Source: a virus. Taken from it: a DNA stretch of 36,724 nt. Shown here piece by piece: positions 5,057 through 33,941 of this stretch. How positions within the stretch are numbered: position 1 is the stretch's first letter; each line of letters begins with the position of its first letter. Below the pieces are notes generated by a model that worked only from the letters and a program-made list of their open reading frames with translations, was not told the DNA's origin and made no database searches. The stretch covers positions 1 through 36,724 of IMG/VR virus record IMGVR_UViG_3300042475_003970; one strand, given 5' to 3'. Position numbers and translations under genes: made by a program.

Positions 5057-5338
5057 CTAATCGACTAGATTTTCTAGGATCTTGTTCACGGCCTCGTCTA
5101 TCAGGTCTCCGCAGTCGTGGACGGCGCTTTCCTCAAGATCTGGGCACCTTGCGTGGATTATTTCGTGTGCGGCACAATTTAACAGACTTCCTTTGGCTTT
5201 CCTGCGGAGGATGATCCTCCTCTCGTCGTAGATGCAGACTGCGTCGTCTGGCTTGCCGTCCGTTTTGCCGGGGTTCCCAAACTCTATCGTCCACTTTTTG
5301 CCCGAGATTTGGATGGACACTTTTTTGGTTTTTTGCAT
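5057..5338 (-). CDS. Small HExxH metallopeptidase-like protein
   Basis: A 93-residue protein. It contains AAHEIIHARCPDLEESAV at about residues 56-73: H58, E59 and H62 form a zinc-binding HExxH motif, and the acidic residues E69/E70 could supply a third ligand. A beta-strand region (DERRIILRRKAKGS) precedes it, as in minimal SprT-, ImmA- or Wss-like zinc peptidases. There is no signal peptide. Its start lies 55 bases inside the endonuclease VII gene in another frame, an unusually long overlap, so the two are probably translationally coupled. Substrate unknown: it might process a phage or host protein. The motif could also be structural, since the protein is very small. Confidence 0.6.
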   Translation of the reverse strand: MQKTKKVSIQISGKKWTIEFGNPGKTDGKPDDAVCIYDERRIILRRKAKGSLLNCAAHEIIHARCPDLEESAVHDCGDLIDEAVNKILENLVD

Positions 5339-5859
5339 GGCCGTTTTCTGTGTTTGGTCAAATATTTTTTAGCTGTAGCGAGTAAGATAATGTCATCTTT
5401 AAAGAGTCCAAGACCTAAATTGCACTTGCTGCACAAGAGACCACGAATCATCCCGCTCTTGTGGCAGTGATCGACGGCTAAATTTTTGCCAGAAGCGCAT
5501 GGTTTACAGCAAATTGCACATCCGTTCTTCTGTTTTTTAAGTTTTTTATCGTACTCTGTAGTAGATATCCCGAAACCCTTCATAAGCCTGTAATTTCGAT
5601 ACTTCTCGGCGTTTGCTCTCCTCCAAGCCTGAGTCTGAGCGGTATATTTTTTGGGATCTTGTCTTCGCAAACGATTCGTAGCGTTACGCCTAGCTTTCAA
5701 TAGCCTTACAAACGACTCGGGAGAATACCACTTCTCGACTATCTTCTTGGAGCCGTCTTTATATTTTCGGGGGGTGTAGCCACCAAAAATAAATCCATCT
5801 CCCCGTACGTCTCCAATCTTGAACTCCCTAGTTGTCTTGGTGGTCTTCTTGGTAGCCAT
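5284..5859 (-). CDS. Recombination endonuclease VII-like HNH nuclease with N-terminal GD module
   Basis: A 191-residue protein. The C-terminal half has the endonuclease VII signature: CAIC (C114, C117), VDHCH (D130, H131, H133), RGLLCSKCN (C143, C146, N147), then GLGLFKDD. The four Cys bind zinc and the DHxH/N residues form the HNH-like active site. The T4 family resolves branched DNA; stand-alone phage versions often act as mobile or packaging-related nucleases. The N-terminal 55 residues (KIGDVRGDGFIFGGY ... EKWYSPESF) match in pattern the short proteins at 23963-24376 and 27283-27528, suggesting a shared DNA-binding module. The C-terminal tail is very basic. It overlaps both neighbours out of frame, by 32 and 55 bases, suggesting that it was inserted. 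Confidence 0.85.
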   Translation of the reverse strand: MATKKTTKTTREFKIGDVRGDGFIFGGYTPRKYKDGSKKIVEKWYSPESFVRLLKARRNATNRLRRQDPKKYTAQTQAWRRANAEKYRNYRLMKGFGISTTEYDKKLKKQKNGCAICCKPCASGKNLAVDHCHKSGMIRGLLCSKCNLGLGLFKDDIILLATAKKYLTKHRKRPCKKPKKCPSKSRAKSGR

Positions 5860-7855: not shown

Positions 7856-8764
7856 TTAGAGATTAATGAACCAAGGAAGGTCTAGCAGTCTGGCAATAGT
7901 GTTGTCTGAGCCGCCACCACTTCCCCCGCTGACGACAACACCTCCATTAAAAGATACATCATACCCCCCAATAATTTGCGTAGCGGCGGCAGTTAAATCA
8001 AACGTGGCCTCTCCTCCGACTGATCCTCCGCTTTGGGCAAAGCTAGTATCGTTAAATGTGGCATCTCCTGAGACTGAGCCTCCGTTGTAGCTAGAGTCGT
8101 TAAACGTGGCACCATTGACAGACGCACCAATGGCGTTATAGCTAACATCGTTAAATGTGGCGGTTCCAACGACTACCGAATTGTTGTAGCTAATGTCGTT
8201 AAAAGTCACAGGGAGTCCAGTCGGCATTCCGTTGAAGTAGCCTATAATGCCCCCATTGTAGCTATAGTCGTTAAACGTGGCCTCTCCTCCGACTTCGCCA
8301 AAGATGTCGTGGTAGCTAGAGTCGTTAAATGTGGCATCTCCTGTGACTTCCCCATTATTGTAGCTAGTGCCATTAACCGTGGCGTTGCCTTCTACTTCTG
8401 CGCCGCTGTAGTTTATGCTAGTATCGTTAAACGTGGCGTTGCCTGTTACTGTGCCGAAGTTGTAGCTAGAGCCGTTAAATGTGGCATCTCCCGTGACTGT
8501 GCCAGAGTTTTGGCTATCTTGAAAAGTTGCGTTACCAATTGCTCCCGTAAAACTTAACAGCCCTCCGTAGCTAAGAGTATAGGCATAGATGTGATTAAGG
8601 GTGACTGGCGTTGTTGGGCCGCTAGTCATATAGCCATAGAGATACACAGTATCCCCAGTAGTAGGGAGGGCTAACGCAGGGTCAGTAAATATGTCATCAT
8701 TCCACCAGTTGCCTAGTGTGTCCCATGCCGTATCTACTGCGGCGTTGTAGTAAAGATTAGCCAT
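7856..8764 (-). CDS. Repeat protein with about 11 ATFNDxSYN units, predicted surface or fibre protein
   Basis: A 302-residue protein. The N-terminal 75 residues contain a W-rich start (AWDTLGNWWNDD) and LPTTGDTVYLYGY, an arrangement seen at the start of beta-helical surface proteins. Residues about 76-290 consist of about 11 degenerate repeats of 16-18 residues with the core ATFNDxSYNxGxVxG, predicting a regular parallel beta-solenoid. The C-terminus is Gly/Ser-rich and ends LLDLPWFINL. The repeats are also recognisable at DNA level, so copy number may vary by recombination. It follows the capsid gene by one small gene. It may be a virion decoration or adhesin, or alternatively a self-contained host-binding protein. 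No enzyme motif. Confidence 0.75.
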   Translation of the reverse strand: MANLYYNAAVDTAWDTLGNWWNDDIFTDPALALPTTGDTVYLYGYMTSGPTTPVTLNHIYAYTLSYGGLLSFTGAIGNATFQDSQNSGTVTGDATFNGSSYNFGTVTGNATFNDTSINYSGAEVEGNATVNGTSYNNGEVTGDATFNDSSYHDIFGEVGGEATFNDYSYNGGIIGYFNGMPTGLPVTFNDISYNNSVVVGTATFNDVSYNAIGASVNGATFNDSSYNGGSVSGDATFNDTSFAQSGGSVGGEATFDLTAAATQIIGGYDVSFNGGVVVSGGSGGGSDNTIARLLDLPWFINL

Positions 8765-9112: not shown

Positions 9113-10321
9113 TTAGAGACCAGTCGTGGAGGTCGAGCAAGGCAGAGCCTGACCATCAAACGGGCAGCGCTTGAACAGGATCGCGCACACGTTCTGTGGG
9201 CGGATCGGCTGGATCGCACGCTGGATTTGATAGATATGCTGACCGAAGTCACCATACAGGTTGCAATCGTTGTCGCGGAAGTACGTCCACTCGAGCTCGC
9301 CCATGCTAAGCTGGGGAGCGAAGCGGAAGGTGCCCTCACCCACGTACTGCTCGGGAACGAGACGCTTGAAGCTCTCACCTGCGATGACGAATCCGACCTC
9401 GTAAGGAGCGTTCACCCAAGATGGGTTACGGCGCTGTCCGAAACCATTGGTGACGGCCTGAGCGATGATAGGATTGACGAGGACGAGGTTGCCGTCTTCA
9501 CCGAGACCCGTGCTGCGCAAGGGCTGCTGATCGATGCCGAAGGCGAACCCACGATAGCCCATGAACTGGTAACCAGAGATGGACTCCTCACCGAGCTTGA
9601 ACGAACCAGCGGTGAGATAGAGGAGATCCTCTTTCACGTCGGCGTCGTTGCGGATGTTCTCGATGGCGTCTGCACCAAGAAGAACTTGGAAGAACTCCCC
9701 GTCCTTCGATGCGAAGGGCTCGGCAAGCATCTCCTCGCGGAGGAAGCTACCGATCTTGTAGAGGGTCTTGAAGTTCAGCGGGCTGTCAACGACGTTGGTC
9801 GAGAACTGGGTGTTGATCTGCTGCATGTCACCAGTCAAGTTTGAGTTAAAGGTGTTAACGCTGGAGCAGGTGTACTTGATGCCAGACTGGATCAGGAACT
9901 GATAGCGGATATCAGCGTTGATGAGCTGGAGGATCGTCTTCTCAAGCGAGACCTGAGCCTGAAGGTAGGAACCCTTGAAGGCGGTACGGGCTTGCTTGAC
10001 GCAGACGCGTGGGCCAGCACCACGAAGAGTGGCGAGCTGGAACTGATACTCGGTCGAACCTACGCGGTCGGGAGTCGCGCCGATACCACAGAGGTTGATG
10101 TCTGCGGTGAAGGTCGGGGACGCCAGCGAAGAAGCGGGAACGGCCATTTCCTCAACAACGGAACGCACAACGTCGGAGACGTTGGGGAGAGTTCCACCAT
10201 CGATGGAGTTGATGTAGGGGCTCTTGCGGGCAAGAACCTTTGCGATTTGACCAATGATACGATTCGTGTCCTTGGACGCGAAGTTCTGGACTGTTGCCAG
10301 ATCGATGCAATTAGATGCCAT
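9113..10321 (-). CDS. Major capsid protein
   Basis: A 402-residue protein in the position of the major capsid gene of podovirus-like phages. No catalytic motif. It has features common in capsid subunits: a helical N-terminus (VQNFASKDTNRIIGQIAKVL), a long helix near residues 110-150 (SYLQAQVSLEKTILQLIN), and a beta-rich body. Cys residues are frequent near the N-terminus, in the middle and at the C-terminus (LFKRCPFDG, ALPCS). The frame extends upstream to 10435, but the extra 38 residues are basic and unlike the rest, and the ATG at 10321 follows a purine-rich A-tract like other starts here, so 10321 was preferred. Usually the scaffold gene is adjacent; here a 3.5-kb glycosyltransferase cassette separates them. 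Capsid identity rests on position, length and composition. Confidence 0.75.
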   Translation of the reverse strand: MASNCIDLATVQNFASKDTNRIIGQIAKVLARKSPYINSIDGGTLPNVSDVVRSVVEEMAVPASSLASPTFTADINLCGIGATPDRVGSTEYQFQLATLRGAGPRVCVKQARTAFKGSYLQAQVSLEKTILQLINADIRYQFLIQSGIKYTCSSVNTFNSNLTGDMQQINTQFSTNVVDSPLNFKTLYKIGSFLREEMLAEPFASKDGEFFQVLLGADAIENIRNDADVKEDLLYLTAGSFKLGEESISGYQFMGYRGFAFGIDQQPLRSTGLGEDGNLVLVNPIIAQAVTNGFGQRRNPSWVNAPYEVGFVIAGESFKRLVPEQYVGEGTFRFAPQLSMGELEWTYFRDNDCNLYGDFGQHIYQIQRAIQPIRPQNVCAILFKRCPFDGQALPCSTSTTGL

Positions 10322-10366
10322 GGGATTTTGTTTTTTGTTTTCCCTGTAGCCACCTCGTCCAATTTT

Positions 10367-10507
10367 GGAAGTGACAACCACAGAGTTGTACGGAAGGCGC
10401 GTGCGCTTTCGATACGAAGTTTGGTTTTGTGTCACTTCCCGGCACGCTGGAAGTTTTTGTTTGCGGCCTGATTAGTAGATTTTTTTGACCCCTACCGAGT
10501 CACTTCC
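10367..10507. promoter_or_regulatory. Three GGAAGTGAC boxes in the leader region of the capsid gene
   Basis: The 233 bases between the methyltransferase stop and the capsid ATG contain the 9-mer GGAAGTGAC three times: on the plus strand at 10367-10375 and on the minus strand at 10431-10439 and 10499-10507. The first two form an inverted repeat about 55 bases apart; the last two are direct repeats 68 bases apart. No standard sigma-70 or Bacteroidota -7 box (TAnnTTTG) was recognised. The boxes may be operator or phage-promoter elements for strong capsid expression, or RNA stems. Otherwise this intergenic stretch holds no convincing gene. Confidence 0.4.
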
Positions 10508-10554
10508 ATACGGAGGAAGCACGCCGAGTTAAGTTGTTTTTACTAGCGTGCGTA

Positions 10555-11142
10555 TTACAACGCAAGATCTTTTTTCAAAATAAATTCAATGAACGCTTCG
10601 ACGGCGTTTTCCCGATCGAACGTCTGGTCAACGGACGTGCCCAGCTTGTAGTTGTAGTTGGTATCCACAAGTCGGCAAATCTCCACTTTGTGCTCACTAA
10701 AATTGTCCTTCAACCAATCGGGGAATAGAACGTGGTTCGGCGCTGGGGATCCTTTCTGCCACATCGAGAAGGTGCTCTTGTGGTCGGGATTGTAGCGCGA
10801 GGGCCAGACCATGCCCTCGTACAGCTCCCAAGAGGGGATTGTGACGACGGCGTAGCCACCCGGCTTCAGGATACTCATCCACGATTTCAACGCCAGCACG
10901 GGATCGTGCATGTGCTCCAAGCATTGTGACGCGTGGACGTAGTCGAAAGAATTAGCGGGGAAGTAATCGTGAATCCTATTGGCGTCTCCATCCTCGACAT
11001 CGAAACCAATTACGCCATCCACGGCGATCAGGTCATCCCCCGCGCCAATGTCGATCCCCCTACCAGTAAATACTTTTTCCCAGAAAGGCTTTTCTTCTCC
11101 CGATAGTCTGCGGGTCATTGCTTTTGAGGATTCTTGGCACAT
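10555..11142 (-). CDS. Class I SAM-dependent methyltransferase
   Basis: A 195-residue protein with the Methyltransf_11-type Rossmann core: motif I GIDIGAGDD (residues 29-37), an acidic strand end GFDVEDG (46-52), a FDYVHASQCLEHMHDP loop (66-81) and LKPGGY (92-97). Proteins of this type often methylate sugars or small molecules during glycan synthesis. It is last in a leftward cassette with four glycosyltransferase-like genes, so O-methylation of a phage-encoded or host glycan is the likeliest role. A protein or nucleic-acid target cannot be excluded. Start ATG at 11142 with an A/C-rich leader and 4-base spacing to the upstream gene. Confidence 0.85.
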   Translation of the reverse strand: MCQESSKAMTRRLSGEEKPFWEKVFTGRGIDIGAGDDLIAVDGVIGFDVEDGDANRIHDYFPANSFDYVHASQCLEHMHDPVLALKSWMSILKPGGYAVVTIPSWELYEGMVWPSRYNPDHKSTFSMWQKGSPAPNHVLFPDWLKDNFSEHKVEICRLVDTNYNYKLGTSVDQTFDRENAVEAFIEFILKKDLAL

Positions 11143-11146
11143 AGTT

Positions 11147-11731
11147 TTAGGATTTGTTGTTGATGAGGTCTTGGTACTTGTCTCGGTGAAAGATTACGGC
11201 GTCTTTTCTAATCATGCCGCTCTCTTGTGGAAACCTATGGGGAGCAGCGTTTCCACTGCTATCATATTTGCCGTAGCTATGCTGAATCAGGGGAGATTTA
11301 TGAATTAGATTGAAAGCGTTACGCAGCATCCACATGTCCCAACCTTGTCCCCTCAAATCTCCATCAATATCCTTCGGGATTATTTCAAAAGTTCTTGGGC
11401 CATATACTCCTATCCCTCCGACAATATCGAAAGGGGGATTTCTATCTGAAGATAGCATGAATTGCTTACAACATACTGCGTACTCAGCTTCAATGCGGTC
11501 GAGCCATCCAGCACAAAGGGGTGTGGAGTCTGGTTCTAGCCAGAAAAATGCCTCTCCCTTCATAATTTGACCCGCCTGATAAAACGCGTAGTTGTTCCTA
11601 GCTGGGTACTCCTCGGTCTCGTCAATTGCTGGGATCACAAGTACTTCAGTCCCATCTAGCCGCTTGATGTGGTTGACAAGGTTGTCAACTTCCTTGTGTT
11701 GCCTCTCGGCTGCGACGATTACCGCTTTCAT
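11147..11731 (-). CDS. Glycosyltransferase-like protein (GT-A type)
   Basis: A 194-residue protein. It starts with MKAVIVAAERQ, a beta-strand typical of GT-A folds, and contains FFWLEPDSTPLCAGWLDRIE (around residues 62-81). The acidic EPDS occupies the place of the DxD metal- and nucleotide-sugar-binding motif, and the GW is typical of family 2-like enzymes. Later it has GGIGVYGPR and GWDMWMLRNA. It is short for a complete GT but includes the donor-binding half. It overlaps the upstream GT9-like gene by 4 bases (ATGA). Donor and acceptor are unknown. Confidence 0.7.
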   Translation of the reverse strand: MKAVIVAAERQHKEVDNLVNHIKRLDGTEVLVIPAIDETEEYPARNNYAFYQAGQIMKGEAFFWLEPDSTPLCAGWLDRIEAEYAVCCKQFMLSSDRNPPFDIVGGIGVYGPRTFEIIPKDIDGDLRGQGWDMWMLRNAFNLIHKSPLIQHSYGKYDSSGNAAPHRFPQESGMIRKDAVIFHRDKYQDLINNKS

Positions 11732-12465
11732 TTTGGTAAAGATTCAAAGTCCACGTTTCCATCGAAGCAATAAACAGCTCCAGAATAGCGTATGATGCTG
11801 TTGGGAGCTGTTTCGTAGACCTCTTGTAGCAAAGGAACGCGCAATCCTGCTGCGATCCAGTAGGCGCTAGACTGATTCCCGACATACAACTTGCTCGCGG
11901 CGATTGCTTGGGCAACTTCTAGGCAGTCTTTGGTCAAGTGACGGGTGATTTTGCCGAAAGATTGGACAAAATCGTCGTACTCTTCGTCTGTTCCGACAAA
12001 TACCGCCTCATTTCCGTATCGCTCCACGACTTTCTTCCATGGGAATTTATCGTTCCTGTACCTGTGAGAGCGATTCATCACTACTTTTCCGCGTAAATCT
12101 TCGTTGGGCTCTACTTTTAACCATGGCTCAGTAATTTCCATGTGCCCATTTTTCCTGTCCACCAAGTTCAGGTATCTCGCCTGAGAATCCATCAAAGAGA
12201 TGTGATCCTCGTAGCACTCCCTCCAGTTGGTCGTGTCGTAATCAATACTCGATTTGCAGACGTTCAGATCAGATGGTATCCCTTGGCTATCTAGCAGCGG
12301 TTTCAAGGAGTCGTACTTGTACCCAGTCATTGGCACTCCCCACGACGCGTCAGTAACTAAAAGCCTAGTCGCTCCTAGTTTTCTGTAGATAGGTATGAAT
12401 GCAATGATGTCACCAATATGACCTTGGTGCAGCACTATTACCTGTCTGGAGAAGGGGGATTCCAT
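11728..12465 (-). CDS. Glycosyltransferase family 9-like (heptosyltransferase-type) protein
   Basis: A 245-residue protein resembling the heptosyltransferase and ADP-heptose LPS transferase group. It has an N-terminal loop HQGHIGDIIAFIP (residues about 13-25), which matches the GxGD acceptor-side loop of GT9, and a C-terminal donor-binding half with EAVFVGTDEEYDDF and the signature KLYVGNQSSAYWIAAGLRVP. It is shorter than bacterial GT9 enzymes (about 320-350 residues). It may add a sugar to an LPS-like acceptor or to a phage protein. It is coupled to the next GT gene by ATGA. Confidence 0.75.
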   Translation of the reverse strand: MESPFSRQVIVLHQGHIGDIIAFIPIYRKLGATRLLVTDASWGVPMTGYKYDSLKPLLDSQGIPSDLNVCKSSIDYDTTNWRECYEDHISLMDSQARYLNLVDRKNGHMEITEPWLKVEPNEDLRGKVVMNRSHRYRNDKFPWKKVVERYGNEAVFVGTDEEYDDFVQSFGKITRHLTKDCLEVAQAIAASKLYVGNQSSAYWIAAGLRVPLLQEVYETAPNSIIRYSGAVYCFDGNVDFESLPK

Positions 12466-12480
12466 TTGTTCTACGTGGAA

Positions 12481-13044
12481 CTAGTTAGAAATTTTCTGAA
12501 CCATTTGTTGAGATCGAGTTAGCTCTCCATCTCGCTCAGGGTGAAACAAATTATCGAATGTTGGAAAAAACACTTTGCAATCAACGATCTCCGATTCGGG
12601 GATGGGAGCCCCATTGCTAAGAATTTCTTTCGCAATGAAGCTCCCAATCACCTCCTCGGCCTTCTCCTGTGTCGCATAAAAAATATGCGAACGCTTCCCC
12701 GCCACCATGTGCAATGGATGCACAGACTCGATCTCCGTTGCCAGAGAAGGAGTAAATCCTAAATTCAAAACGTCGTAGTCACTCATCCAGCCGCCTCCTG
12801 CAGCTTGCAGGGCGCACCACCTAGAAAACCTAGCCATGGCGGATGGAGCTATTCCTTCGTACTTTAAAAATCTACCCATCAAAGACCTGAATAGCGGACT
12901 GACTGCGGCGTGCGTCTTGTTCAGCATGTTGCATTCCCATCCATTACTCTCCCAAGATCCTTTCCAGAGATTGGAGCAGGCGAACTCTTCCTCCTGACGT
13001 ATGGAAGGAATCGACTCGTAGTAAGCGTAGATCTTCTTTTTCAT
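12481..13044 (-). CDS. Glycosyltransferase, sugar-binding DxD (Gly_transf_sug-like)
   Basis: A 187-residue protein. Residues about 73-92 read FSRWCALQAAGGGWMSDYDV: an R..W/L..GG motif followed by D89-Y-D91, the DxD motif of GT32-like capsular and mannosyl transferases. The start was set at the ATG at 13044 (MKKKIYAYYES, a typical first beta-strand); the frame runs further upstream but there overlaps the preceding gene. The stop of that preceding gene is one base away. Donor and acceptor are unknown. Confidence 0.75.
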   Translation of the reverse strand: MKKKIYAYYESIPSIRQEEEFACSNLWKGSWESNGWECNMLNKTHAAVSPLFRSLMGRFLKYEGIAPSAMARFSRWCALQAAGGGWMSDYDVLNLGFTPSLATEIESVHPLHMVAGKRSHIFYATQEKAEEVIGSFIAKEILSNGAPIPESEIVDCKVFFPTFDNLFHPERDGELTRSQQMVQKISN

Positions 13045-13045
13045 C

Positions 13046-14056
13046 TTAATACGTCTTGTACCCCAAGTGTGATACTGGGAGACCCAAGTCCAAGTGGGGT
13101 TGATGTCCCGCTTGCTTCGCACGTTTGCAGAACGAAACGTCCTCGCCGTGTGCGCTATCAAACGGACGAAAGTAATCGTAGTCGTAGTCTGGAACTTCGA
13201 TCTTCAGCTCGTCGCCGAACTTTTCACGAATGTCTTCAAATACCTTTCGGTGGACTAGCATGCAGCCTGTAGCTACCCAATCCACCTCAACTACAGCGTC
13301 TTCGTACGCACGTGCGCGAGGGACAAGTGACTGATCGCTAGCCATAAGTGCTCCCCCTTCCTGCCTTCCGAAGTACGAAGCTCCCACTAGGGTTTTACCA
13401 GCACCCATTAGCCTGTGAAGAACGTGACGTTTTAAGGGCAGTTCAGGAACATTTCTGAGATTCTGAACCCAGTACTTTGACCATTCGGGTCTTCCGATAC
13501 ATGGAATGATGTCGTCGTCGATCATCAACATCCACTTGGCGTCAGTTTCCAGAAACTTGTGAGCCAGTCGATTGCGTGCGTGTTCGATCTTGCTATCGCC
13601 GATCGCCATATCAAAACGAATTTTGTCACGGCCAAAATCCAGCGCCATTGCGATGAGAGAAAAACAGGTAACTGGATTGGTTGTCTTGTAGCATGGGAAA
13701 CCCACAAAAATATCCCTGCCTTCAAACTCGCAGCGGTACGAGGGCAGTCCCTCCTTGGAGCGCGTCTCGATGATAGGATTCTTAGCCTTCTTGGTGGGTT
13801 TCTTCTTCTCCACCACAACAACCTCTGGTTCAGGTGCCTTCTCAACAATCGGTTCGATCGAATCAAACTCGAAGTCGTCTTCTTCGACTTCAATTGGCGT
13901 TTCCTCTTCAACGTCTTCAGGAGCCTCGGCCTTCGGGGAGAGTTTAAGCCTCTGAGCTGACAGAGGTTGATCTACGATCGTTCCGCCCATGGGGTTGAAC
14001 GACTCCAGTGCCCTAGCAGTTACGTTTACTAGGGGAGTGATGATGGGATCAGGCAT
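13046..14056 (-). CDS. GT-A glycosyltransferase with acidic N-terminal extension
   Basis: A 336-residue protein. Residues 1-100 form a disordered extension, acidic from about 43 to 78 and then Lys-rich (VEKKKPTKKAKNP). Residues about 110-335 form a GT-A domain: IFVGFPCYKTTNP, then MLMIDDDIIP with D180-D182 as metal- and donor-binding residues, ATGCMLVHRKVFEDI, and GEDVSFCKRAKQAGH followed by HLGY, the usual family 2-like catalytic region. The long extension is odd for a GT and may tether the enzyme to a phage particle or partner protein. It is first in the glycan cassette, 6 bases after the scaffold-like gene. Confidence 0.8.
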   Translation of the reverse strand: MPDPIITPLVNVTARALESFNPMGGTIVDQPLSAQRLKLSPKAEAPEDVEEETPIEVEEDDFEFDSIEPIVEKAPEPEVVVVEKKKPTKKAKNPIIETRSKEGLPSYRCEFEGRDIFVGFPCYKTTNPVTCFSLIAMALDFGRDKIRFDMAIGDSKIEHARNRLAHKFLETDAKWMLMIDDDIIPCIGRPEWSKYWVQNLRNVPELPLKRHVLHRLMGAGKTLVGASYFGRQEGGALMASDQSLVPRARAYEDAVVEVDWVATGCMLVHRKVFEDIREKFGDELKIEVPDYDYDYFRPFDSAHGEDVSFCKRAKQAGHQPHLDLGLPVSHLGYKTY

Positions 14057-14061
14057 ATACT

Positions 14062-15339
14062 TTAGAAGCCACTAGCCTCATCGAGGCCAAGATCAATTGC
14101 GTCGGACGCATTCATTTTGATGCGGTCTTGGACGTTTGTACTTGTTTTGGCATTTGCTGGAGTAGGATTAGCCTTGGGCATCCTTCCCGCGTTTTTCAGC
14201 GCGGTAAGCTCCTTTGTCATCGCTTCAAGTTTGGCCTGCATCGCCTGCTTGGTCTCCTGCTCGTAGCGAAGTTGTCCAACAACGACATGGAACCCAGAGG
14301 CAGCAGCGGCGACATCGGCGCGTTCCTGCGGGGTCTTGGGCCATAGAGCGGCTTCAAACTTGTTCGAGAGATCTTGAACCTTTGCGTTGTGATTCTCGAT
14401 CTCGGCCTGAACCTCGGGAGGATCGTTCGGATTGATCTCCTTGTAACGAGCCCATGGAATCTCCTTGGTGATCTCGTCGGTGTGGCTGTAGATCTCTTCG
14501 TTCTGCTTCTTGAAGTTCTCAACAAGCTCGGTCTGTCTGGACTGAAGGAACTCGTCGCGCTTCTCGGCGGTATCTCCGATCTCCTTGGTGCGTCCCTCCT
14601 TGAGGTCGATGACGTTGAAGAGATCCTTCTTCAGGCGCTCCGCGTCGATCATGGGCAGCTTGTCGATGGCTTGGCTCTTCCACCACTCCTGACTGATCTT
14701 GTCGGGGCCACCAGCGGACTCGATGGAGTTGATGACGTCTTCGCTTGCGCCATTCTTCTTTAGGATGTTGTAGATGTTTTCCTTCGCGGTAGCGATGGGC
14801 ACGTCGTACTTGCTCTTGAACTCGGGATCGTTCTCGGTATCGAAGATAGCGCGGAACTTCTTGAGCTCGTCGTAGTCGGGAGGCGTCTGGCTTGGGCGCT
14901 GCTCAAGCTCTTGAACTTTTTGACGCAGATATTCGGCCTCCGCCGCCTGCTTCTTGTAGTTCGTCGCGGTCTCCTGCAGCTTCTTCCAGTTGTTTTGGTT
15001 GGCCTCGGAAAGATTACGGGGCTGCGGGATTGAAGAGATCTCAGGGTCAATGTCTACTTCGGGAGCAGCGATCGGCTCTGGAGCTGCTTCAGGAACGACT
15101 TCCTCAACGGGAACTGGAGCAACCTCTTCCAAGGCAAGATCTTCCTCAACACTTTCAGGAATTTCAGGAATTTCAGGAGAAGTCTCGTTACTAATTCCCT
15201 CCGCGCTATCGAGCAGAGAGTCTAGGAGATCGGATGTTGACTCCTCGATGGGATCAGCATCGAGTGATGGTGCTCCAAGCATGCCGTTAATGGCGTTGGA
15301 TTCTGGTACTACGTTGTCGTTTTCTGTATCGTTTGACAT
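14062..15339 (-). CDS. Scaffold-like capsid assembly protein
   Basis: A 425-residue acidic protein. Residues 1-110 are Glu/Pro/Ser-rich and disordered; residues about 115-165 form a coiled coil (SEANQNNWKKLQETATNYKK onward to LEQRP); the rest is helical and charged, with a Lys-rich C-terminal segment ending DLGLDEASGF. This composition and place between portal and capsid genes are typical of phage scaffolding proteins. No protease motif was seen. The glycosyltransferase cassette separates it from the capsid gene. Identification is by position and composition. Confidence 0.7.
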   Translation of the reverse strand: MSNDTENDNVVPESNAINGMLGAPSLDADPIEESTSDLLDSLLDSAEGISNETSPEIPEIPESVEEDLALEEVAPVPVEEVVPEAAPEPIAAPEVDIDPEISSIPQPRNLSEANQNNWKKLQETATNYKKQAAEAEYLRQKVQELEQRPSQTPPDYDELKKFRAIFDTENDPEFKSKYDVPIATAKENIYNILKKNGASEDVINSIESAGGPDKISQEWWKSQAIDKLPMIDAERLKKDLFNVIDLKEGRTKEIGDTAEKRDEFLQSRQTELVENFKKQNEEIYSHTDEITKEIPWARYKEINPNDPPEVQAEIENHNAKVQDLSNKFEAALWPKTPQERADVAAAASGFHVVVGQLRYEQETKQAMQAKLEAMTKELTALKNAGRMPKANPTPANAKTSTNVQDRIKMNASDAIDLGLDEASGF

Positions 15340-19002: not shown

Positions 19003-19248
19003 CTATCCGCGCTTGCTTCTTCCGCCGATGCACTTCCACTTGCGGCGACTCAGGTTGTTGGGAGAGTTTGGATCGTCTCGCCAGTCTCCCTTGATCTTGT
19101 TGGAGCGAGCGCAGTACGCGTCTGCACGTTTTGATCCCGGATCAACATTCGCTCCTTTTTGTCCGTAAGAAACCTTGTTGGTTCTTCCAGTCTCTGGATT
19201 TTTTACTATTTTAACTGACGCTTTGCCTGTTGTGGGTTTTGATTTCAT
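19003..19248 (-). CDS. DUF6321-like phage protein
   Basis: An 81-residue basic protein. The order KNPETGRTNKVSYGQKGA, DPGSKRADAYCARSNKIKGD and PNSPNNLSRRKWKC matches a conserved phage family (DUF6321-like) common in T7-like phages of aquatic bacteria. The function is unknown; the Lys/Arg-rich sequence with two Cys suggests nucleic-acid or virion contact. Its first 38 bases overlap the end of the homing endonuclease gene in another frame, consistent with insertion of the endonuclease immediately upstream. Confidence 0.75.
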   Translation of the reverse strand: MKSKPTTGKASVKIVKNPETGRTNKVSYGQKGANVDPGSKRADAYCARSNKIKGDWRDDPNSPNNLSRRKWKCIGGRSKRG

Positions 19249-19876
19249 TTCTTTTTTCTTTGTAGTAATTATTTTTGCTTGTTGCTCCAGCTACTATCCA
19301 CGGCTCTTGTTTGTATTGCCAAGGTAGAAGGATAATATTTTCATCTCCAATTTTTTCAGCTTTTATAATCCTACTGGATCGTAGTATGCCGTGTTTTCTT
19401 CCAAGGTCTTTTCTCTTAAACCATTTTGAAACAATCGCCCTTTTTACATTGAATCTATTCCCAGCTAATTTCAAGCTATCAAACGATTCGACTTTGCCGC
19501 AGTCATAATAAAAAATGTATTTATTTCTGACCTGCGAGTCTGACATTTTCTTTTTATGGTTATCTGAAAATTTAATTCCAGCCATTGGAGCAGATGCGCT
19601 TTTGCAAAAGTTTAAACAATTATCTTTACCGATATTCTTGTCCAAGTATTTTTGCTCTTCATCGAGAACAGATTCTTTATCGCAAAGGACAAGTGTCTTG
19701 AATGCTATTGCATCTTCTCCATATTTATCAAAACATCTTTGCAGTCGTTGATTGCGATGTTTTCCAGATCGTAGTTTTGCTATATGGTTTCGTTTGCGAG
19801 CGTAGATATTGATGCTACTGCCATAGTATTTATAGCCAGCAATTTCAATCTCATATACACCCGCTTGTTTTTCCAT
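19211..19876 (-). CDS. GIY-YIG homing endonuclease with NUMOD3-like region
   Basis: A 221-residue protein. The N-terminal catalytic domain has GVY at residues 6-8, YYG at 17-19, R27 or R29 in YARKRNH, and E73 or E74 in LDEEQKYLD, the key residues of GIY-YIG nucleases. A SDNHKKKMSDSQ segment (about residue 103) matches the NUMOD3 DNA-binding motif of homing endonucleases, and helix-turn-helix-like sequence follows. Base composition is visibly more A/T-rich than in neighbouring phage genes. The start overlaps the stop of the upstream small gene by one base (TAATG). It likely cleaves an endonuclease-free copy of this locus in related phages and spreads by recombination. Confidence 0.85.
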   Translation of the reverse strand: MEKQAGVYEIEIAGYKYYGSSINIYARKRNHIAKLRSGKHRNQRLQRCFDKYGEDAIAFKTLVLCDKESVLDEEQKYLDKNIGKDNCLNFCKSASAPMAGIKFSDNHKKKMSDSQVRNKYIFYYDCGKVESFDSLKLAGNRFNVKRAIVSKWFKRKDLGRKHGILRSSRIIKAEKIGDENIILLPWQYKQEPWIVAGATSKNNYYKEKRNEIKTHNRQSVS

Positions 19877-31320: not shown

Positions 31321-33075
31321 TTATTTCTTGTAGACGTCTGAGAGTGAGCCCTCGGCGGAAAGGGGAAGTCCCTCGGCCCATTCTGGGGCGGTTGACATGA
31401 TCTTGACGATGGTGTCCAAGCAGCGCTTGCCCTCGTCGCCAGCTGGCACCTGACACACGACCTCGTCATGGATCCGCATGATTACTGGGAATCCCTGCGC
31501 CTCGATGCGTAGGCAGCAATCCATGAACACGTCACGGGCCGTCGCCTGCACGAGATTTTCCGTAACGACTCCGCCCCAAAATCCTAAGCGCATGAACTTG
31601 CCTTGGCGCGGTATCTGCGCGGTGAGTCCGCCGTGATCCACTGACACGTTTCGATATGTCATCTTGCGACCCGAAGGCATCTCGATCTCCGCGTTCTTGT
31701 CGTCCTTACTAGTCGCGGTGCTACGTAGCACCTCCTCCAAGTCTTTCCAGAGCTTAGTTACGAGGGGGTTCTTGACGCGGTACAGACGCGTTAGGCGCTC
31801 CGCCTCATCGGTGGGGATGTTCGCGACCGACGCAAATTTCTTCGCGCCCATGCCGTATCCCAAGCCGAGGTTCAATCCCTTGATCAGGTGGCGCTTCTTG
31901 GGGTCAGTCCGCAGGGGCTCGTCTCCGCTCCAGAGCCCCATGGCACGCGCCTGAGCCTCGTAGAAGTCGGGGCACTGGCGGATGTGCTCAAGCATCTTGG
32001 TATCGCCAGCGAGCCAGTGAAGCACGCGTGGCTCGATCTGGCTGAGGTCAACGATCGCGAAGGTGTAGCCTTCGGGAGCCTTGATCATGCTGCGGACATC
32101 GACGTCGAAGACCTCGCCCTTGGGAAGGTTCTGCGCGTTCCAAGAGCCGTCGCCGCTGTCCCTTCCCGTGTGAGCTCCGAAGAATTTCAAGCCGTAGGGC
32201 ATAGTCCCATCTTCCCTGCAGCGGCTTCTCATGGTCTCAAGTGTGCTCAAATGCTTGTTGCCGCGCCTGAAGTTACGTACAGCCTTGATCCATGGGTGCA
32301 GGTGGGAGAACTCGTCCTCCCAGCGCTCCGCCTCGTCGTCGCCCTTGGCGAATGACGCTGGTGCCCAGATGCCTACCTTCTCGCACTCAGCACGCACGGC
32401 CAGCGGCGATAGTATCGACTCACGATCGGCCCATGGGATGTCGAGCTTGGCCTGCCAGATAGCCGTCTGCAGCTTGGTGATCGCCTTGTCGAGAGCGGGC
32501 ACGTCGAGGGGAACTCCGCGTGAGCACATGGTGCGCGTCATGGCGCTTATCTCGCGCTCGTGCTCCACGAACTTGTCTCCGTGCTGCAGGTAGAGGTTGA
32601 GGCAATGAACCGCGTCGTCGAGAGCGTACTTGACCACGTCGTCACGAAAGAACACGTCCATGTCCTCCCAGCGCTGGCCCTTCATGTTGTCGCGGATGGT
32701 CTTCGTCATCTCGACTCCAAGCAGGCTGTTGGCGCTTTCCTTCAGGCTTCGATTGTGTCCTAGGTACGCGGCCATGTCGGCTGTGCATACCCACTCCGCG
32801 ATCTCGATGCTCTCTGGAGCGTGTCCCAGCTCCTGCAGCCGCTCGATGACCATGGAGTCGAACGAGACGTTGTGAGAGAGCCAAGTGACGTCGGGGCCAA
32901 CGATCTGCGACCAGTCAAAATCCTTGGGGTGACCCGCCCATCTGAGCCCGTTGTCAGCAGCTACCGAGAGCAGGTACAGATCGGCCTTTGGGTGACGAAG
33001 GTAGTGCCAAGTCCCGAGCGTCTTGATGGAGACCTCGTCGTCGTAATAAGTTTCAGTGTCGAGTGCAACGATCAT
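31321..33075 (-). CDS. Family A DNA polymerase with 3'-5' exonuclease
   Basis: A 584-residue replicative polymerase. Exonuclease motifs: DTE (residues 6-8), HNVSFD (N69, D73) and YALDD (Y150, D153/D154). Polymerase motifs: A VDLSQIEPR (D343, E348), B RHLIKGLNLGLGYG (R395, K399, Y407), C HDE (536-538). It lacks an N-terminal 5' nuclease, as usual for phage PolA. The residue equivalent to E. coli F762 is L403. It is ATGA-coupled to the glycosyltransferase gene upstream and followed closely by a small gene and the deaminase. Confidence 0.93.
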   Translation of the reverse strand: MIVALDTETYYDDEVSIKTLGTWHYLRHPKADLYLLSVAADNGLRWAGHPKDFDWSQIVGPDVTWLSHNVSFDSMVIERLQELGHAPESIEIAEWVCTADMAAYLGHNRSLKESANSLLGVEMTKTIRDNMKGQRWEDMDVFFRDDVVKYALDDAVHCLNLYLQHGDKFVEHEREISAMTRTMCSRGVPLDVPALDKAITKLQTAIWQAKLDIPWADRESILSPLAVRAECEKVGIWAPASFAKGDDEAERWEDEFSHLHPWIKAVRNFRRGNKHLSTLETMRSRCREDGTMPYGLKFFGAHTGRDSGDGSWNAQNLPKGEVFDVDVRSMIKAPEGYTFAIVDLSQIEPRVLHWLAGDTKMLEHIRQCPDFYEAQARAMGLWSGDEPLRTDPKKRHLIKGLNLGLGYGMGAKKFASVANIPTDEAERLTRLYRVKNPLVTKLWKDLEEVLRSTATSKDDKNAEIEMPSGRKMTYRNVSVDHGGLTAQIPRQGKFMRLGFWGGVVTENLVQATARDVFMDCCLRIEAQGFPVIMRIHDEVVCQVPAGDEGKRCLDTIVKIMSTAPEWAEGLPLSAEGSLSDVYKK

Positions 33076-33941
33076 GATAGTGTGTCGATAAGTTTCATCC
33101 CGTAGTTGTTGATGCCCTCTGGGATTACGAGGTTTGGTTTCCGAATGAGCTTGTTGTTTTTGAAAGGCTTGTAGTCTACCTGATGATGCCAGCGGTTAAA
33201 CTTCCAAACGACTTTGGCTACGTCAGGATGAAGGTCTGCTAGCATCTGGGACTTAGCCATGGTGCCCTCGTGCTTGTAGAACTCCTCGGTGTTGCCTCCG
33301 CCCATGGTCTGGGTCGTAGCCTTCTCCTGAGTGAACGCGTTGAACTCTATGGTGCAGAGCCCGTCCTTCAAAGCGCGTAGGCATAGGTCGGTGTCCTCGT
33401 TGTAGCGTCCGCGCCAGCGGTAGGGGATATCGTTCTTGATGAGCAGGCACGAGTAGATGCGCGTGTTCATGATGATGGGTGGCACGATGGTCTTGGCCTT
33501 GATAAAGAAGTCGTACTGAAAGCCAGCTATGGCGACGTTCTCGTAGCGTTCGACGAAGTCCTCGGCGCATTTAAAGATTGTGCCGCTTGTGACCTTGCAT
33601 TGCAGGTTTCGATTCAGGCGGTTGAAGGCTGCGATGTTGTCGTCCATTACCCAGTGACGTGTAGCGCCACGCGTTATGGAGTGATCCCAGCAGAAGTTGC
33701 GTGCAGCGCCCGGGCCCACGCTCTTCGTCAACCCAAGATCGTCGCACGTATCATAATCTTTAAGATAACTCTGCGGAAGCATGAGGAGCTTCGACTCGTC
33801 CATGGTAGACGCGTACAGCAAGAACTCCTGCGGCTCCACTACAACGAAGTGCGGAACCTTTAGGCGATCAAGCGCCCTGCTTGTAAGCCCCTTGTCCCAG
33901 CGTCCCTTGGATATGATGTAGACGGGATGACTAGGGTTCAT
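33072..33941 (-). CDS. TAGT-like (TET/JBP-associated) glycosyltransferase
   Basis: A 289-residue protein of the phage family whose members start YIxSKGRW: here PVYIISKGRWDKGLTSRALD (residues 6-25), VVVEPQEF (33-40), GPGAARNFCWDHS (76-88) and HWVMDDNI with D100-D101 as donor- and metal-binding residues, then YRWRGRYNEDTDLCLRAL. TAGT enzymes are predicted or shown to add sugars to modified bases in phage DNA. It sits between DNA polymerase and a small partner gene, both overlapping, in a replication operon with a deaminase. No TET/JBP, base hydroxylase or pyrimidine hydroxymethylase is visible in the window, so a protein acceptor remains possible. Confidence 0.8.
   Translation of the reverse strand: MNPSHPVYIISKGRWDKGLTSRALDRLKVPHFVVVEPQEFLLYASTMDESKLLMLPQSYLKDYDTCDDLGLTKSVGPGAARNFCWDHSITRGATRHWVMDDNIAAFNRLNRNLQCKVTSGTIFKCAEDFVERYENVAIAGFQYDFFIKAKTIVPPIIMNTRIYSCLLIKNDIPYRWRGRYNEDTDLCLRALKDGLCTIEFNAFTQEKATTQTMGGGNTEEFYKHEGTMAKSQMLADLHPDVAKVVWKFNRWHHQVDYKPFKNNKLIRKPNLVIPEGINNYGMKLIDTLS

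Follow-up and report, generated by a model that had tools for sequence, protein, structure and literature searches.

Why should a phage keep a set of sugar-modifying enzymes between its scaffold and capsid genes? The window analysed here is a stretch of 36,724 nt (IMG/VR record IMGVR_UViG_3300042475_003970), and at positions 10555–14056 it holds a cassette of three or four glycosyltransferase-like genes and one SAM methyltransferase, tightly packed between a scaffold-like and a capsid-like gene. A sequence-only reading had described this as a five-gene block of sugar and methyl enzymes; all five open reading frames were found where it had placed them, on the minus strand, and the position proved common to all 74 loci compared. 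Taken with the evidence below, the locus hints at phage heads that carry a sugar coat of the phage's own making, and one that can change. Its features, from scaffold to capsid, are the following:

14062–15339, minus strand: scaffold-like gene (425 aa) bordering the cassette on the left; its protein matches no known family, and its place between portal and GTa is kept in all complete loci.
13046–14056, minus strand: GTa (336 aa), core gene with a phrog_1574 match and a GT-A model; 74/74 loci.
12481–13044, minus strand: GTb (187 aa), core gene, DxD glycosyltransferase-like by motif conservation only; 74/74 loci.
11728–12465, minus strand: GTc (245 aa), accessory gene, weakly GT9-like; 49/74 loci.
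11147–11731, minus strand: GTd (194 aa), accessory gene, glycosyltransferase-like by eye; 14/74 loci.
10555–11142, minus strand: MT (195 aa), accessory gene, SAM-dependent methyltransferase; in this slot in 26/74 loci.
10363–10532, minus strand: capsid-gene leader, a structured RNA defined by a covariance model with covarying pairs.
9113–10321, minus strand: capsid-like gene (402 aa with corrected start), from alignment of relatives and a weak fold match to phage capsids.

The cassette extends the scaffold operon—a 5 bp gap follows the scaffold gene, and at the remaining junctions the genes are spaced or overlap by only a few bases (15 at most). The link to the capsid gene is of another kind. 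Coupling of the cassette to capsid expression had been proposed, and this part did not stand: 233 bp separate the cassette end from the capsid start in the window (215–260 bp across the lineage), and this intergenic region holds a structured, strongly covarying RNA of 170 nt. Its covariance model matches 79 of 84 sources, with changes on both sides in 26/26 modelled pairs; an alternative long-range helix, H5, is paired in 72.7% and has weaker support than H4. The leader has no Rfam match above the gathering score, only chance-level ones, and an Rfam scan of the window returned two tRNAs only. Sigma-70-like promoters were rarer than in shuffled sequence, and terminator-like sites numbered 13 against 7.5 by chance, none of them convincing at the cassette ends. 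The arrangement makes the timing of capsid expression with respect to glycosylation a testable question.

How constant is the slot? The lineage is one of uncultured freshwater phages, represented by 74 distinct relatives in which both flanks are present; for 60 of these, similarity of the capsid was the sole criterion of collection. GTa–GTb lies directly after the scaffold gene in 74/74 loci, including 60/60 of the capsid-collected ones, and purifying selection on the cassette genes is strong (dN/dS 0.02–0.15 against three close relatives); shared position and purifying selection together are more than chance. Cultured phages searched with capsid, TerL and GTb gave no match, and GTDB genomes searched with capsid and GTa yielded neither host nor prophage.

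After the constant pair, most loci carry a variable set of further glycosyltransferases and methyltransferases—GTc, GTd and MT in the window, and GT34-like, FkbM-type and other enzymes elsewhere in the lineage. Near-identical phages exchange this set whole, between GTb and the capsid leader RNA. In one pair (L011/L012) DNA identity is 97% on either side of about 2 kb with no match; the capsids are 100% and the GTa proteins 99% identical, and the accessory set is replaced. Two further pairs (L008/L010 and L022/L026) show block swaps with constant flanks.

GTa consists of a conserved N-terminal helix (residues 8–18), a variable linker (about 25–95) and a GT-A core with DDD at 180–182; D182 and D306 are present in 72/72 members and D180 in 71/72. 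Profile search matches residues 251–334 to phrog_1574 at 3.1e-10, and its AlphaFold (AF2) model adopts a GT-A fold. The best solved-structure matches of this model in Foldseek are the protein glycosyltransferases LH3, COLGALT1 and ppGalNAc-T2, a likeness at the level of fold (TM about 0.4, 12–13% identity) that does not fix the acceptor. An acidic and lysine-rich tether had been suggested for the first glycosyltransferase; the linker is indeed long but its sequence is variable, and what is conserved is the short helical motif at the N-terminus. GTb is best read from ATG 13044 (187 aa) rather than TTG 13161, the shorter reading being the conserved one. Its motifs, R..R and GGGWMSDYD, with D89 and D91 in 70/71 members, mark it as a putative glycosyltransferase by motif only; it has no Pfam or PDB match. 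Profiles of GTa, GTb, GTc, capsid and portal run against PDB sequences gave nothing meaningful.

Two other phage groups, with capsids that fail to align with the window capsid, also have relatives of GTa beside the capsid gene. In the cultured Microcystis phage Mel-JY34 the relative (XAI96494.1; hhalign 97.7% with GTa) directly follows the capsid gene, and in the Manatee Spring group the order scaffold–MCP–small–GT–tail tubular A recurs in more than 30 loci. Homologues from Mel-JY34 (at 5e-15), HTVC027P and a Rhodobacteraceae phage match phrog_1574 as GTa does. That family is of unknown function; the window differs in pairing GTa with GTb, and its GTa has both the N-terminal motif and the long linker, neither of which is present in the short proteins of Mel-JY34 and Manatee Spring. 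The sequence-only reading had named a cassette at unrelated sites, unlinked to the capsid, as evidence against it. Within the lineage GTa–GTb was never found outside its slot across the 74 loci, and MT, which in some relatives lies upstream of portal, is still within the head region. Beyond the lineage the picture is divided: the two groups above keep the capsid-side position, but homologues lie away from the capsid gene in HTVC027P (tail region), a Rhodobacteraceae phage and S-SSM7, which we count against the explanation that follows.

We consider it probable, though well short of certain, that this locus serves virion glycosylation in two layers, one conserved and initiating, the other decorating and exchangeable, with the capsid as probable acceptor. 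The reasons are the slot fixed in 74/74 loci, the resemblance of GTa to protein glycosyltransferases, the capsid-side relatives elsewhere, the block swaps, the lack of strongly hydrophobic segments in the window's cassette proteins and the Che8 precedent described below. GTa and GTb, always present, would initiate a glycan, lengthen it or do both, with a virion protein as acceptor; the likeliest is the capsid or some other protein of the head, and the reaction would take place in the cytoplasm while heads assemble. The GTa helix on its flexible linker may dock the enzyme to scaffold, capsid or procapsid. Extending and capping the glycan would fall to the accessory enzymes, which would draw on host nucleotide sugars and S-adenosylmethionine; MT would methylate a sugar, and block exchange would leave close relatives with different glycan types. 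A glycan directed to the virion and possibly methylated, as proposed earlier, is retained as the best reading.

By the same mechanism the acceptor could instead be a fibre, a tail protein or the repeat protein encoded at 7856–8764, the head position then reflecting only late expression with the scaffold. The Manatee Spring enzyme between capsid and tail genes and the HTVC027P enzyme in the tail region fit such an acceptor; we nevertheless regard it as improbable, given that GTa–GTb comes right after the scaffold gene in all loci and that the accessory block borders directly on the capsid leader.

The accessory enzymes bring in a different target, the host surface. MT is the sole clear Pfam match among the five cassette genes (Methyltransf_23, 1.2e-10). 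GTc weakly matches Glyco_transf_9 (GT9) in 10/29 members, 1.3e-3 at best, and GTd, with no family match, looks glycosyltransferase-like only by eye; the enzyme classes assigned earlier thus hold for MT by Pfam and for GTa by profile and fold, with weaker evidence for GTb, GTc and GTd. Surface-polysaccharide clusters are well known to include GT9, FkbM and GT34-like enzymes, GT9 being a heptosyltransferase family, and exchangeable accessory sets resemble serotype loci; accessory exchange by itself would fit a host-surface target too, a further point against the virion locus. The cassette might then modify LPS or another host surface polysaccharide precursor late in infection, blocking superinfection or freeing progeny from receptor-bearing debris. 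We think this unlikely: Pfam and hydrophobicity searches found no membrane-type Gtr protein, flippase or polymerase in the cassette (the rest of the genome being only partly annotated), the capsid-side position is fixed in the lineage and recurs for GTa relatives in two other groups, and the GTa core resembles protein glycosyltransferases. The window's cassette proteins have no strongly hydrophobic segments, as fits soluble cytoplasmic enzymes.

Sugars could also be destined for modified phage bases, with the cassette acting together with a TAGT enzyme encoded beside the DNA polymerase. The window does contain a TAGT-family gene (33072–33941), and a deoxynucleotide monophosphate kinase is encoded in the fuller genome, as is a dCMP-deaminase-like protein. 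Such a role is highly improbable, since TAGT was found in only 2/8 related records (three of those without it are about 63–66 kb) and GTa–GTb in all loci, GTa has no detectable kinship to TAGT (hhalign probability 1.2%), and the cassette lies in the head region and not among replication genes.

Returning to the virion locus, we tentatively take the exchange a step further, as a serious possibility: an initiating pair would mark a head protein, and the decorating cassette would recombine between the GTb 3' end and the leader RNA, so that phages with the same capsid would wear different sugar coats, in the manner of bacterial serotype loci. With relatives of the initiating enzyme beside the capsid gene in other phage groups, capsid-linked glycosylation may be widespread and overlooked. 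Serotype-type surface polysaccharide loci and Gtr phages likewise carry an exchangeable sugar-enzyme block between constant flanks; the cassette differs in that its flanks are phage head genes and that it encodes neither a membrane Gtr protein nor a flippase or polymerase. The literature searched contained no description of a swappable accessory set next to a capsid gene.

Experimentally documented phage virion glycosylation is confined, in the literature searched, to a few mycobacteriophages. In Che8/Corndog (gp110, gp38) the capsid and tail tube are reported to be glycosylated (PMC11256854, PMC12363180, PMC12619734), and the Che8 capsid is a precedent for phage virion glycosylation (PMC11256854, PMC12363180). 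Our scan of Che8 found gp108 to be a glycosyltransferase–methyltransferase fusion and gp109 and gp110 to be glycosyltransferases. Small phage glycosyltransferases and a methyltransferase domain are thus encoded together, as in the window cassette (GTb and GTd by motif only); in Che8 these genes lie near the genome end, in the window between scaffold and capsid. GTa has no significant similarity to gp110 (hhalign probability 19%), and probabilities are 0.1% for GTa against gp109 and 0.2% for GTd against gp110. Chlorovirus PBCV-1 (A064R, A111/114R) offers a second comparison, with virus glycosyltransferases and an O-methyltransferase making a capsid glycan whose core is conserved across chlorovirus glycans (PMC7826918). 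The likeness, compared by description, is that glycosyltransferases and methyltransferase are virus-encoded; PBCV-1 differs as an algal virus with N-linked glycans and multidomain enzymes.

If the virion reading is true, sugar-coated phage heads would be common and diversifying under selection, because the locus is kept lineage-wide and related enzymes adjoin unrelated capsids. This raises the question of what selects for phage surface glycans without antibodies—grazers, particle adsorption or recognition by defences. Mel-JY34, being cultured, makes a direct test possible.

The favoured acceptor is the product of gene 9113–10321, assigned as a capsid, a candidate HK97-fold protein, with moderate confidence from its structural model. 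The protein has no sequence-family match, and the model is poor (pLDDT 48) with uniformly weak Foldseek matches (E 0.015 to 0.86); the first 12 matches of this low-confidence model are 11 phage capsids and one phage-satellite capsid. Its start is most likely ATG 10321 (402 aa) rather than GTG 10435, because the alignment of relatives begins there and most of them show an in-frame stop a short way upstream. The C-terminus is rich in S/T and conserved. We considered whether capsid extensions track the cassette and rejected this; most such loci carry an F6 glycosyltransferase, but independent events are too few. The capsid carries an N-terminal extension of 40–57 aa, rich in S/T/G/N, at seven loci (L013, L016, L018, L023, L046, L058 and L092), and is longer or has an inserted stretch at L119, L120, L125 and L126.

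The best explanation for the cassette is that it glycosylates a head protein: as a putative pathway, the conserved pair GTa and GTb would start a glycan on that protein, the exchangeable accessory set would decorate it, and one accessory member would add a methyl group. On the minus strand, the head region runs TerS, TerL, portal-like, scaffold-like, GTa, GTb, GTc, GTd, MT, capsid-like. The scaffold gene lies 5 bases from the cassette, within which genes overlap or are separated by at most about 15 bases; the start of GTb is ATG 13044, which replaces TTG 13161.

The placement proposed from sequence alone is borne out by synteny—GTa and GTb come after the scaffold in 74/74 distinct loci holding both scaffold and capsid. 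Relatives were collected from IMG/VR with the capsid (best 80 of 164 kept) and with GTa (56 relatives); 60 of the 74 loci came via the capsid alone, and as that sample comprises capsids at least ~74% identical to the query, the finding of a fixed position applies within this lineage. The genes following GTb vary: GTc (49/74), MT (26/74), GTd (14/74), a protein with an FGE-sulfatase domain (11/74) and, more rarely, other glycosyltransferases or methyltransferases (GT34-like, FkbM, Methyltransf_24, Methyltransf_23). Accessory genes are absent in thirteen loci, and several relatives have MT upstream of the portal. The FGE-sulfatase-domain protein, with a signal-like N-terminus, sits between leader RNA and capsid, mostly replacing the accessory enzymes, in these loci:
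L019, L025, L027, L029, L031, L035, L037, L043, L047, L050, L057

Relatives L011 and L012 are 97.2% identical in DNA over a stretch that starts upstream of the scaffold and ends inside GTb, and 97.6% identical over a second one that begins just past the cassette and runs to the end of the capsid gene; the accessory genes in between give no DNA match (GTc-GTd-MT in one, another glycosyltransferase and a diverged GTc in the other). L008 and L010 likewise have constant flanks with every accessory gene different; in L022 and L026, flanks that are nearly identical enclose differences in GTc/GTd. The accessory part therefore behaves as an exchangeable module, one that can change while the capsid stays 100% identical; on its right side, the exchanged block ends where the capsid leader starts.

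The enzyme classes named by the sequence-only reading stood to differing degrees. MT is a SAM methyltransferase (Methyltransf_23, 1.2e-10), GTa is glycosyltransferase-like by fold, GTc weakly resembles GT9, and a family search with GTd gave no match. Because profile searches with GTb found no family match, it is graded a putative glycosyltransferase by motif only (R72, R75, GG and DxD kept in 70-71 of 71 sequences). Every cassette gene in the window is under purifying selection (dN/dS 0.02-0.15 against three close relatives).

GTa matches phrog_1574, a family without assigned function. Its AlphaFold2 model, for which 39 relatives were used, is confident in the core (about residue 110 onwards) and shows an N-terminal helix (8-18), the two being joined by a low-confidence linker. 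The structure-based search suggested earlier was run on this model, and protein-modifying enzymes lead the solved matches—LH3 (lysyl hydroxylase, 3e-8), COLGALT1 (collagen galactosyltransferase, 8e-7) and polypeptide GalNAc-transferases (2e-6), then Mnn9 (3e-6)—with likeness at the fold level (TM about 0.4, identity 12-13%). Top matches among viral models are phage proteins labelled glycosyltransferase or uncharacterised. Residues at catalytic-type positions hardly vary (D182 and D306 in 72/72, D180 in 71/72). At the N-terminus, a short conserved motif (T..AL.S.xPF, around residues 8-25) precedes a linker that varies in both length and sequence and then a conserved segment entering the core; we infer that the motif is a docking element.

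Outside the lineage, Microcystis phage Mel-JY34 has a GTa homologue directly 3' of its major capsid gene (hhalign 97.7%, E 2e-12), and Manatee Spring phages have one (95.2%, 3e-8) in the order scaffold, MCP, small protein, GT, tail tubular protein A. More than 30 IMG/VR relatives of the latter retain the slot after the capsid gene. The capsids of both groups gave no alignment to the window capsid.
L150-L152, L154-L190: second group, GTa-family enzyme in a fixed capsid-side slot

The supposed link to the capsid thus recurs in two other groups and fails in HTVC027P (tail region), a Rhodobacteraceae phage (near replication genes) and S-SSM7 (near baseplate genes); by gene position, the association of the family with capsids is strong, though not universal. 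Remodelling of the host surface by the cassette enzymes is a possible alternative.

Among documented cases of head-protein glycosylation, mycobacteriophage Che8 comes closest: glycosylation of its capsid has been reported (PMC11256854, PMC12363180). A domain scan of the Che8 cluster identified gp108 as a GT-methyltransferase fusion and gp109 and gp110 as GTs, so that, as in the window, GTs and a methyltransferase are encoded together; however, neither gp109 nor gp110 is significantly similar to GTa, and the cluster is distant from the head genes of Che8. A comparable logic is seen in chlorovirus PBCV-1, where the core of the capsid glycan is conserved and the terminal sugar is O-methylated (PMC7826918). 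Glycans are also reported at mycobacteriophage capsid C-termini (PMC12619734), and the C-terminus here is a possible glycan site:
9116-9157 (-), S/T-rich capsid C-terminus, conserved (CST..TGL in most)

An S/T/G/N-rich extension of 40-57 aa at the capsid N-terminus, or an insert inside the capsid, occurs mostly in loci with the F6 glycosyltransferase:
L013, L016, L018, L023, L046, L058, L092; L119, L120, L125, L126

Modification of phage DNA by the cassette is unlikely, because GTa is not detectably related to the TAGT enzyme, which is missing from most records bearing the cassette. The TAGT gene itself, seen in only 2/8 related records, suggests that part of the lineage may hypermodify its DNA:
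33072-33941 (-), TAGT-family DNA-glycosyltransferase-like gene adjoining DNA polymerase

Between the end of the cassette and the capsid lie 215-260 bp of sequence, conserved in 44 loci. The most likely capsid start is ATG 10321 rather than GTG 10435: alignments of relatives begin there, and in most of them an in-frame stop sits shortly upstream. The intervening sequence holds one element:
10363-10532 (-), structured RNA of ~170 nt, capsid leader, covariance model

The model (15 sequences, four hairpins) gives 79 hits among 84 sources, one apiece, and each of three 63-66 kb genomes carries a single copy; where the FGE-sulfatase-domain gene is present, the match lies upstream of both that gene and the capsid. 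Both-side changes occur at 26/26 modelled pairs, and standard pairs reach 95.2%, compared with 63.8% after shuffling and about 35-44% after sliding, figures that lean towards the model to which the alignment was fitted. At least one pseudoknot is supported: H3, kept out of the model, has both-side changes at 5/5 pairs and is 79% paired. Helices 79-84/94-99 and 94-103/157-166 (RNA numbering) possibly compete. The leader found no match in Rfam, and a search of 24 loci from other phages with its model gave none either. It is likely a control element, standing between the cassette and the capsid; the cassette therefore belongs with the scaffold operon, and the co-expression with the capsid first proposed is not upheld.

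Two further ORFs were noted by eye:
19211-19876 (-), GIY-YIG-like, between TerL and portal
5284-5859 (-), HNH-like, near the lysis region

The window is an IMG/VR virus record of 36,724 bases. A 65,289-base contig (G001, also L007) contains a stretch matching it, the compared proteins being 100% identical. The peptide ending the contig's last ORF (L138 end) also lies within its first (L135 start), which suggests a terminally redundant, complete genome.
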